Source: Flavihumibacter sp. CACIAM 22H1 (lineage in GTDB: Bacteria > Bacteroidota > Bacteroidia > Chitinophagales > Chitinophagaceae). Taken from it: a DNA stretch of 48,264 nucleotides. How positions within the stretch are numbered: position 1 is the stretch's first letter; every line of letters starts with the position of its first letter. The stretch spans positions 16,470 to 64,733 of the forward strand of contig NZ_LUKG01000012.1 in NCBI RefSeq assembly GCF_001601815.1, read 5' to 3'. Made by a program: the position numbers and the translations under genes. This document shows positions 4,049 to 6,647 of the stretch, one piece after another. The notes below the pieces were generated by a model. That model did no database searches. It was not told the DNA's origin and saw only the letters and a program-made list of their open reading frames with translations.

Positions 4049-4399
4049 ATGAAAAAAATTTACCACCTCGCCAACTGCGATACCTGTCAGAAAATAGTGA
4101 AAGAAGTCGATGCCGCTAAGAAAAAAACGGTGCTGCAGGATATTAAAACGGTTGCTATTACCCCAGAGCAACTGGATGAAATGAAACAACTTGCCGGTAG
4201 TTATGAAGCCTTGTTCAGTAGAAGAGCACTTAAGTTCCGCAGCATGGGATTACATGAAAAAACATTACAGGAAGCTGATTATCGCCGTTTAATACTGGAA
4301 GAATATACTTTTCTAAAGCGACCGGTTGCTATAGTAGGAAAAGAAATTTTTATTGGCAATACAAAAGCTGTTGTTGAAGCCTTGAAAAAGGCGTTATAA
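4049..4399 (+). CDS. ArsC/Spx-family protein (thioredoxin fold, CxxC)
   Basis: 116 residues starting at ATG 4049 (MKKIYHLANCDTCQK). The N-terminal CDTC motif (residues 10-13) follows the first beta strand, as in Spx and ArsC-family proteins. The region LFSRRALKFRSMGL and the late FLKRPVAIVGKEIFIGN match the family's conserved R and KRP signatures. Arsenate reductases of this family use the first cysteine with a downstream arginine; Spx-type regulators use CxxC as a redox switch. The CxxC favours the Spx/YffB-like side, but no arsenic genes or RNA polymerase partner evidence are nearby, so the role is open. The stop overlaps the end of the convergent 719-aa gene by 6 bases. Confidence 0.87.
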   Translation: MKKIYHLANCDTCQKIVKEVDAAKKKTVLQDIKTVAITPEQLDEMKQLAGSYEALFSRRALKFRSMGLHEKTLQEADYRRLILEEYTFLKRPVAIVGKEIFIGNTKAVVEALKKAL

Positions 4400-6553
4400 C
4401 ACCGCGGCGTCTTCATTAAACAGGCGAATTACAAATAGGCTCAGGTTCCGGTAAGGAGGCACATACTCCGAAAACAGGTTTTTAGTAGCTTCTGATTTAT
4501 TGAATTGCTCCGCTAACCTGTTCCAAAGCTCGGGCCAAAAAATATCCTGTTCCTGCAGGAAAAGGGCATTTAACTCCTGGATCATGGGGTCATTAATCAG
4601 TTTAGAACCGATTTGTTTGGTAGCAACAATCTGCGCATTCGGACTTTTCCCTGCAACGGTTAATAAATTTTTATACCCGCCGCAGGAGCCCAAAATGGCC
4701 AATTTCATATAAGACTGCAGGTAACTAAGCGTTGTAGGCAGGTGATAACTATGCCCCCGGTGTATAATTACGCCTGGCCTTATTTGCTGGTTGGAAAGAT
4801 AACTTAGCAGTTGCTGCTGGGCTTTTTCATCTTCCCGAAAGGTATGGTCGAGTGGAAGATTGGCATAAATATGTACGGGCTGAACCGAATTTTTGGAACA
4901 GATCTCTACCCATTTGGGCATTTTGGAAATCATCCAAACAGAACTGTCTTTGAATAAACTTAAAAAATTGGCATAACTGGCTTTGCCGTCTTCATCTCCA
5001 TAAAACAGCACTAGTTGGTGTATAATATTATCTACTCCAACAATTGATTTAACAGGCAGCAACTCATAATTACCAAGCCGGGAAAACAATTCTTGTCTTG
5101 ATTCTGCATGATTTGCTACCTGATAAATCTGTCCGAGTATGCTGTACAACCTGATTCCGTAAAAATTATCTGTAGCCCTGCAACGCTGCAGATTTTTTTC
5201 CAGCAAATCGCCTACTACTTCATTTGCCAGTGAATCAGACGACAAGCTGATAAATGCATCGGCTACATCCATGGCTTCCTCTATGCCGCTTTCCATGCCC
5301 GACTCAATACCAGATACAAAACGGGATAAGAGATTTTTGCGCTCTTCTTCCGGCATATTCGACAAAAAATCAGCCAGCACATTATAGTGGGAACAAATAC
5401 GGATAAATTTCCGGAACTGGTCAAATGCAACGTATTCAAACAAACTATCGGCTCTTCCCGCAGGCAACTGCAGCATTAGTTGTTTGTAAATACCCAGGAA
5501 ACTGGAGGTATACAATTCATCTTCGCCGGTGGTGATCAAATAATACAGATCAATATTGCGAAGCGGTTGAATACTGGCAAACCGGGTTGTATTTCCGCTC
5601 TCGTGTAAATCATTGATCGGCTTAATATAAAATGCCATAGCTTTGTCATGAAGTGCAGTTCGTAGAGCCGGTTGCATGCCCAGGGAGGAACCAGGGTGCC
5701 GGTTCTTCCGGATTTCCTGAATATCGTCCACCAGTTTTTGATAGTACCCATTTACATTGGAGCTACGCAATAACAACAATTCATCCACTGTATATTTTCC
5801 ATTTATAAGACCGGTGGCAAAATGTGCCAGTTCCCCAACATTTCTGTTACCCGCAATAGTTACCAACTCACGCAATAAAGGGTTGCTTGAATTACGTATA
5901 TGGTCAGCCAGTGGTGTTGTCTGCTGATTGATGTATTGAACAATTGCTAATGGAGATCTTTCTGCGATGTATACCAGGGCCGTATCCATATAAGGGAATG
6001 CGGGCCTTTTTTCCAGGAATGAAATCAGGTTCTCCAGGCTTACCGCCACCCGCCTAACGTCTGCCAGTTGCTGCAACCGCTTTCCTACCGGGTAAAGGCG
6101 AAAAGCATCTGCCATCAGCTGCGTTCGCTTGGCGCCAAATCCGGCCATAATCTCCTGCAGTGATTCTCCGTTTACTATATTATGCGCTATTTGGGGAAAT
6201 TTCTCTAATACATACGGAACATCATATACATCGTACTGGTTCTGCACCAGGCTACCCCTTAGCGTTTGAAGAAAATACCGCAAACTAATAATGCTGTTAA
6301 GGCGGTCATGCGGCTTCTCTTCTTTTCTTTCAGAGAAAGCAGCCTGTAAACTATCGGTGGTATAATACGCAAATTCCCGAAGCCTGATCCTTATTCCTTC
6401 TTCTCCCTTGAACTGATTCAGAAAATTACGGTATTGGATCTGCTCTGCATCCAACAAAGCATTCGCCTCCGCCAGGTTCGACTGGGCTATTCCGGCTATG
6501 GGTAGAAATAAAAGAAGGAAAAAATTAAGTAAAAATCTCTCGCTACAGTTCAT
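4394..6553 (-). CDS. Secreted protein of unknown family with caspase/CHAT-like C-terminal motifs
   Basis: 719 residues with a signal peptide (MNCSERFLLNFFLLLFLPIAGIAQ). I do not recognise a named family. Residues about 25-500 look largely helical with no clear repeats. The C-terminal part has a hydrophobic strand ending PGVIIHRGHSYH (His598, His601, His604), then after a helix another strand KLAILGSCGGYKN (Cys624), then AQIVATKQIGSKLINDP. This order, a strand ending in His-Gly-type residues, then a strand ending in a small residue plus Cys-Gly, then a strand and a helix carrying an aspartate, is the arrangement of clan CD cysteine peptidases (caspase, gingipain, CHAT). That is my inference from motif order; activity is unproven. 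It converges on the ArsC-like gene. Confidence 0.85.
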   Translation of the reverse strand: MNCSERFLLNFFLLLFLPIAGIAQSNLAEANALLDAEQIQYRNFLNQFKGEEGIRIRLREFAYYTTDSLQAAFSERKEEKPHDRLNSIISLRYFLQTLRGSLVQNQYDVYDVPYVLEKFPQIAHNIVNGESLQEIMAGFGAKRTQLMADAFRLYPVGKRLQQLADVRRVAVSLENLISFLEKRPAFPYMDTALVYIAERSPLAIVQYINQQTTPLADHIRNSSNPLLRELVTIAGNRNVGELAHFATGLINGKYTVDELLLLRSSNVNGYYQKLVDDIQEIRKNRHPGSSLGMQPALRTALHDKAMAFYIKPINDLHESGNTTRFASIQPLRNIDLYYLITTGEDELYTSSFLGIYKQLMLQLPAGRADSLFEYVAFDQFRKFIRICSHYNVLADFLSNMPEEERKNLLSRFVSGIESGMESGIEEAMDVADAFISLSSDSLANEVVGDLLEKNLQRCRATDNFYGIRLYSILGQIYQVANHAESRQELFSRLGNYELLPVKSIVGVDNIIHQLVLFYGDEDGKASYANFLSLFKDSSVWMISKMPKWVEICSKNSVQPVHIYANLPLDHTFREDEKAQQQLLSYLSNQQIRPGVIIHRGHSYHLPTTLSYLQSYMKLAILGSCGGYKNLLTVAGKSPNAQIVATKQIGSKLINDPMIQELNALFLQEQDIFWPELWNRLAEQFNKSEATKNLFSEYVPPYRNLSLFVIRLFNEDAAVL

Positions 6554-6647
6554 GTTTAGATTTCAGCCTGAAGGTACGCTGAAATACGGAAACATCCATT
6601 TCTTTAGCAAGGGGCAAGAGCCGGGAATTTTAACCAAGCAAGCTGGC

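Follow-up and report, generated by a model that had tools for sequence, protein, structure and literature searches.

A new protein family, probably of exported cysteine peptidases with a clan CD-like domain, in Flavihumibacter sp. CACIAM 22H1

The window analysed here is a 48,264-nucleotide stretch of the genome of Flavihumibacter sp. CACIAM 22H1 (contig NZ_LUKG01000012.1, positions 16,470 to 64,733), and our subject is one of its genes, which encodes a 719-residue protein whose export signal is followed by a helical region and a C-terminal alpha/beta/alpha domain (Table 1). We consider it likely that the gene product is exported, to the periplasm or out of the cell, and that it is a cysteine peptidase representing a new family, in which a clan CD-like domain stands behind a helical scaffold. 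The family, which occurs in nearly every genome of the Chitinophagaceae (counts below) and has no Pfam or NCBIfam match, probably performs proteolysis in the cell envelope. If this is confirmed, it would add to clan CD a family, an exported design that pairs a helical scaffold with a caspase-type domain, and a substrate to find.

One argument comes from conservation. A first-pass annotation of this DNA had pointed to a clan CD motif pair in the C-terminal region, HRGHSYH (residues 598-604, with His598, His601 and His604) and GSCGG (622-626), followed by a supposedly conserved Asp in AQIVATKQIGSKLINDP (640-656). Both motifs are where it had placed them, and the alignment of homologues bears out the expected constancy of His and Cys. 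The C-terminal domains of 211 open reading frames (ORFs), cut at the best hit, gave 182 distinct domains, distinct meaning not 100% identical, so that close relatives are counted separately. Asp520, His598, Arg599, Gly600, Ser602, Gly622, Cys624 and Gly625 are each found in 182/182 of them, Asp522 and Gly523 in 181/182 each, His601 in 179/182, Ser623 in 176/182 and His604 in 140/182, while Trp673, Trp677, Tyr697 and Pro700 are kept in all 181 rows that have a letter there; a looser cut (183 rows) gives the same picture. Conservation of the His/Cys motif pair is far above chance. The choice of Asp, on the other hand, was mistaken: among 181 rows, position 655 holds D in 46, E in 86 and N in 27, so that Asp655 was rejected as a third catalytic residue (its neighbour Asn654 is kept in 178/181), whereas Asp520 and Asp522 had been overlooked. 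The sole exception at Asp522 is one ORF of genome G588, whose locus contains an in-frame stop. Purifying selection acts on the window gene: against its nearest relative, the proportions of non-synonymous (pN) and synonymous (pS) change are 0.076 and 0.717, the synonymous sites being near saturation. On contig 4 of G588 (locus L337) there is a second copy of the family that has an in-frame TGA and an altered D-x-DG motif and is possibly decaying.

The predicted structure points in the same direction. In the AlphaFold model of the full protein (predicted local distance difference test, pLDDT, 92.1; predicted template modelling score, pTM, 0.84), helices run from residue 3 to 493, among them 27 of at least four residues beyond the signal helix, and the conserved positions of this helical region lie mostly from about residue 314 onward. 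The C-terminal part has seven strands of at least three residues among helices (511-517, 540-544, 548-553, 560-565, 595-599, 618-621 and 641-645), and the isolated domain, modelled separately (scores in Table 1), shows the same elements. His598 is inside strand 595-599, His601 is two residues past it and Cys624 three past strand 618-621. As modelled, a His and then a Cys would thus stand at or just after the ends of consecutive strands, which is the order and placement known from clan CD, where strands 3 and 4 carry the His/Cys dyad at their ends in all members, a Gly adjoins the His, and the region that follows strand 1, together with two further loops, forms the S1 pocket (PMC4357240). The clan CD sheet has six strands, five parallel and one antiparallel, with five conserved helices.

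Structural comparison with VIA gave results that are compatible with clan CD. With the isolated domain, C11 iotapain (6nag) came first (Z 8.6, root mean square deviation, rmsd, 4.7, 184 of 224 residues aligned), accompanied by the C11 peptidases 6n9j (Z 7.8, rmsd 4.7, 188 aligned) and 6mzo (Z 7.0, rmsd 5.4, 180 aligned). These three entries have the most aligned residues (180-188) among the best 50 rows, which are what the comparison covers, and reach residue 224/224, as does one of two dynactin-complex rows (169 aligned, rmsd 7.7), the other ending at residue 214 (161 aligned); according to the tool's own warning, a Z near 8 can reflect a common arrangement. Legumain, caspases and gingipains are not among the 50 rows, which is no argument against them. 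With the full model, Csx29 (8eex), a TPR-CHAT protease, scored Z 8.4 (rmsd 3.4, 143 aligned), and C11 peptidases Z 7.3 and 7.2 (189 and 183 residues aligned). The first entry in this list, DdvA (Z 9.2), was not used, no paper on its fold having been found.

Sequence searches found no established family for the protein, in agreement with the first-pass view that it is unlisted. At E<=10 the 719-residue protein matches no Pfam or NCBIfam family, and against the PDB nothing scored under E 1.4. In Pfam comparisons of 36 diverse homologues (E<=1), the 25 families shown out of 27 include none of clan CD, and the two PADLOC and five NCBIfam single-member matches of these homologues at E<=0.1 include no clan CD peptidase by name; the weak single-member Pfam, PADLOC and NCBIfam matches (best E 0.0028, 0.0072 and 0.0035) were set aside. 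PDB profile matches to Borrelia CRASP-2 (E 0.0022) were taken as chance matches between helical proteins, because they cover only profile positions 351-445 and other helical designs come next. Searches from the side of known peptidases were negative too: at E<=0.001 neither CHAT (PF12770) nor C14 (PF00656) has a hit at any family locus in 29 genomes, C11 (PF03415) has no match in any Chitinophagaceae genome among the 80 genomes searched, C25 gingipain (PF01364) has no hit at family loci in 39 genomes, and the 18 places that YabG/Peptidase_U57 (PF05582) matches in 59 genomes at E<=10 include no family locus. Of the open PMC papers listed by the literature searches, none describes the family by title or abstract.

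A more sensitive comparison used hhalign (local, by score), in which three family alignments (A4, A3 and a 187-row set, some rows of which have N-terminal stretches) were set against 37 profiles, namely CHAT, C14, C11, C25 (built from 29/30, 26/30, 5/13 and 30/30 loci, respectively), a GTPase control (16/30) and 32 control clusters of neighbouring genes. CHAT ranked 1 with A4, 1 with A3 and 2 with the 187-row set (E from 0.017 to 0.06) and C14 ranked 4, 3 and 5 (E 0.023 to 0.1), all non-significant. In these non-significant matches, Cys624 falls on the conserved Cys column of CHAT and C14, which we take to be the catalytic Cys, in all three comparisons, and on that of C11 in one; none of the C25 matches extends to Cys624. 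The column agreement with CHAT and C14 is a hint only. Since no profile match is significant, the family cannot be placed in C11, C14, C25, CHAT or U57, and it is at most a new family within clan CD.

Export, which had also been proposed, agrees with the homologues at large. The N-terminus resembles a Sec signal, with no lipoprotein Cys seen after it on inspection, and of the 150 homologues whose fetched DNA contains an upstream stop, 133 have a hydrophobic N-terminal segment, as against 2/144 for an internal control segment, by a home-made heuristic that is distinct from SignalP. In six of the 17 homologues that fail, the first 70 codons of the open frame contain no ATG, so the start may have been placed wrongly in some cases.

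As for distribution, a homologue was found in 69 of 99 related genomes and, by our own count, in 58 of 60 within the Chitinophagaceae. In a sample of 395 genomes from across the phylum, the domain profile matches 14, all in this bacterial family; the figures are 22 of 395 for the class (nine in the same family and 13 in two others) and 176 of 396 for the order (131 in the Chitinophagaceae, 45 in other families). By a hand count of the listing this amounts to 131 of 133 Chitinophagaceae genomes, on the assumption, taken from row order, that none of the 200 unlisted non-matching genomes of the order belongs to that family. This near-universality is why we think that the protein family probably does housekeeping processing. 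Among the best 80 of 548 relatives in named genomes, the closest are from Flavihumibacter species, with at most 80% identity (F. fluminis), and further relatives may lie in other phyla; another genome of the genus has a homologue that is 87% identical. Thirteen homologues from the genus, the window copy included, have 718-752 residues; a 14th (L014) is cut by the end of its contig. In a tree of 59 proteins, made by a quick method and with several long branches, the window protein belongs to a clade of 14 members, all from Flavihumibacter (support 100), and is separate from the widespread copy, which its genome carries as well; copies of the window type are present in 14 of 15 genomes of the genus. 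Relative to the widespread copy, the one in the window is a side paralogue specific to this genus. In several other bacterial families, the gene forms a tandem pair that encodes proteins of about 1000 and about 700 residues. Such pairs were seen at L034, L035, L036, L037, L038, L039 and L040, and the larger partners at L036 and L040 (two of the seven pairs) are without His601 and keep His598 and Cys624.

The family had been assigned to Bacteroidota, which is too narrow because homologues exist on four Azospirillum plasmids. They came from a tblastn search of plasmid records, in which the identity was 23-29% for matches lying within residues 513-718 and the best E was 6e-18, and two further queries returned the same four plasmids. 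Annotated as hypothetical and 591-738 residues long, the Azospirillum proteins keep in alignment the D-x-DG, HRGHSYH, GSCGG, Asn, W...W and Y..P positions, with Gly622, Cys624, Gly625 and His598 in 4/4 domains. Likeness extends into the helical region, where E-L-Y-T-S (346-350) has the counterpart QLYTSS, and a profile comparison of the Azospirillum homologues with the family spans residues 314-715 (probability 99.9, E 2.9e-33) and covers this YTSS motif. On three of the plasmids (L339-L341), a DUF1194 gene points away from the homologue, and LysE and GGDEF genes come after the homologue; on the fourth (L338) an ISAs1 transposase adjoins it. Phage records gave no family match, and of five stretches in viral contigs that fit a pattern none encodes a relative.

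How the family relates to known peptidases is best seen case by case. C11 enzymes (clostripain, PmC11, iotapain) are bacterial cysteine peptidases, some of them secreted, that share the order His strand, helix, Cys strand, helix, strand, but their motif is His-Gly...Ala-Cys (PMC12445089) as opposed to HRGH...GSC, the extra domain of PmC11 is C-terminal (PMC4850288) whereas the helical region here is N-terminal, and His and Cys are 26 or 23 residues apart here, compared with 46 in PmC11 (His133, Cys179). The general alpha/beta/alpha plan and the order of His and then Cys are shared with C14 (caspase/metacaspase) and C25 (gingipain) (PMC4357240), neither of which has a profile match to the family. 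Like TPR-CHAT/Csx29 and separase-type proteins, the family has a helical scaffold before its caspase-like domain (for Csx29, PMC10028731), but there is one such domain instead of CHAT1 and CHAT2, the protein is exported and no CRISPR partner was seen beside the gene. YabG (Peptidase_U57), a bacterial His-Cys peptidase, has been proposed as a clan CD member with Arg at P1 (PMC12445089, PMC10681294, PMC3482391) and is described in PMC12445089 as lacking sequence homology to other members; GHD is in its motif list (PMC3482391), to be compared with RGHS here. Its required Asp after the His (PMC12445089, PMC10681294) corresponds in our family to Ser602 or Arg599, both 182/182, and YabG, unlike the present protein, is a spore protein.

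If the protein is a clan CD-like peptidase, Cys624 would attack the peptide bond, and the general base would be a His located one strand away, in the HRGH block. Either of two residues may fill this role: His598 is favoured by its strict invariance, and His601 by its place after the strand with an adjoining Gly (Gly600 directly precedes it), as in clan CD. Asp520 and Asp522, in the loop between the first strand and the first helix, which lines S1 in clan CD, might play a part in S1. In PmC11, Arg/Lys specificity has been ascribed to polar and acidic residues of the corresponding regions (PMC4850288), and a preference of our protein for basic P1 residues is a guess. The helical part could hold the substrate or gate the site, as the repeat region of Csx29 can gate its caspase-like domain (PMC10028731). 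Such an architecture would be like that of separase and TPR-CHAT proteins, but sent across the inner membrane. A bolder version, which we hold to be doubtful as a whole, is that a new clan CD family forms the envelope counterpart of separase/TPR-CHAT, an exported helical scaffold gating a caspase-type domain to perform one essential or near-essential processing step across the bacterial family, with the tandem pairs of about 1000 and 700 residues acting as heterodimers and the Azospirillum copy having been acquired by transfer.

Several observations weigh against a clan CD peptidase. Three proteins of the subgroup of about 1000 residues (935-1025; G068 in bacterial family f10, G090 and G484 in f19) lack His601 and keep Cys624, and His598 has no directly adjoining Gly. 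The S1 Asp177 of PmC11, two residues before its Cys (PMC4850288), corresponds to Gly622, 182/182 here, and this weakens any prediction for P1. The hhalign matches are not significant, an unrelated control cluster (27) scoring about as high, and the neighbourhoods examined reveal no operon partner or substrate, and no partner common to the window copy and the widespread clade. The fold searches are equivocal too. With Foldseek, the full model has no PDB match at E<=0.001, and the first PDB and viral matches are GTPases (for the domain, six PDB at E<=0.001 and three viral). With VIA, Rag-type GTPases (Z 8.9 and 8.7) outrank Csx29 and C11 against the full model, many small GTPases following at 7.1-8.3, and two GTPases tie with C11 for the domain (Z 8.5 over 138 and 155 residues). 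The first-pass interpretation is supported in part. The outcomes that it had named as refuting, a predicted fold lacking a caspase-type sheet or homologues that do not keep Cys624 and the His residues, were not seen: the model has an alpha/beta/alpha sheet with His and Cys on consecutive strands, and Cys624 and His598 are invariant. For the clan CD fold, C11 (Z 8.6) is tied with GTPases (8.5) and the profiles are non-significant; fold evidence was rejected as proof of clan CD because GTPases lead in Foldseek and tie in VIA.

It is this lead of the GTPases that speaks for a Rossmann-like domain unrelated to clan CD (GTPase-like or response-regulator-like), in which Cys624 and His598/His601 would bind a metal or cofactor or be structural, an explanation to which we give a small chance. 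Against it, the nucleotide-binding loop of small GTPases, GxxxxGK(S/T), is absent, the loop after the first strand being (G/D/N)D-x-DG followed by a variable residue. Moreover, the VIA rows of GTPases align 124-155 residues of the domain, and most stop by model residue 180 of 224 (4arz by 194), while the invariant Tyr697 and Pro700 (model residues 202 and 205) lie beyond where they end. An exported GTPase would also be unusual. A slightly better chance, still unlikely in our judgement, goes to a thiol enzyme of the same fold type with non-hydrolytic chemistry, such as a transpeptidase, ligase or acyltransferase with envelope proteins as its substrates, since any Cys/His thiol chemistry fits all the conservation evidence, and some clan CD enzymes also ligate. 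The clan CD families in the available portions of PMC12445089 and PMC4357240, however, are peptidases, and nothing here indicates a second substrate. Very improbable is a catalytically dead scaffold whose caspase-like domain merely binds. The loss of His601 in three members would suit it, but Cys624 and His598 are kept in 182/182 domains across several bacterial families, plus 4/4 in Azospirillum. Pseudoenzymes often lose the nucleophile.

Table 1. Features of the gene and its product, with coordinates of the window
Feature	Residues	Coordinates	Strand	Basis
Whole coding sequence, 719 amino acids plus stop	1-719	4394..6553	(-)	ATG start, no internal stop
Sec-type signal peptide	1-24	6482..6553	(-)	Sequence; putative cleavage near Ala-Gln
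All-helical region	25-495	5069..6481	(-)	AlphaFold model m8467e7567aab
E-L-Y-T-S conserved motif of helical region	346-350	5504..5518	(-)	Alignments
Alpha/beta/alpha C-terminal domain	496-719	4397..5068	(-)	Model m394daa1df2f9, pLDDT 94.6, pTM 0.91
D-E-D-G, between first strand and first helix of domain	520-523	4985..4996	(-)	Conservation
H-R-G-H-S, putative catalytic His block	598-602	4748..4762	(-)	Conservation
G-S-C-G-G, putative nucleophile Cys624	622-626	4676..4690	(-)	Conservation
Invariant Trp673 and Trp677	673-677	4523..4537	(-)	Conservation
Invariant Tyr697 and Pro700	697-700	4454..4465	(-)	Conservation

Some of the genes around the family members, namely the two-component, transporter, ATP synthase, ArsC-like and PhnD-like genes, were named by our own interpretation of their sequences. 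In the widespread clade, the gene often has two-component genes on one side and genes for an ATP-binding cassette (ABC) transporter and ATP synthase on the other, an arrangement that looks like vicinity without a functional link. A plus-strand ArsC-like gene and the window copy meet tail to tail and have 6 bases in common (4394-4399), a pairing that recurs in other Flavihumibacter, and the other neighbours of the window copy are a DUF4440/SnoaL_3 gene and a small lipoprotein-like gene with no Pfam match. In three close relatives, a PhnD-like substrate-binding gene of 301-312 residues, so named from the L051 sequence, is directly upstream (L051:7049-7951, L052:7049-7951 and L054:6995-7930), and its equivalent in the window is a 94-base gap (6554-6647).

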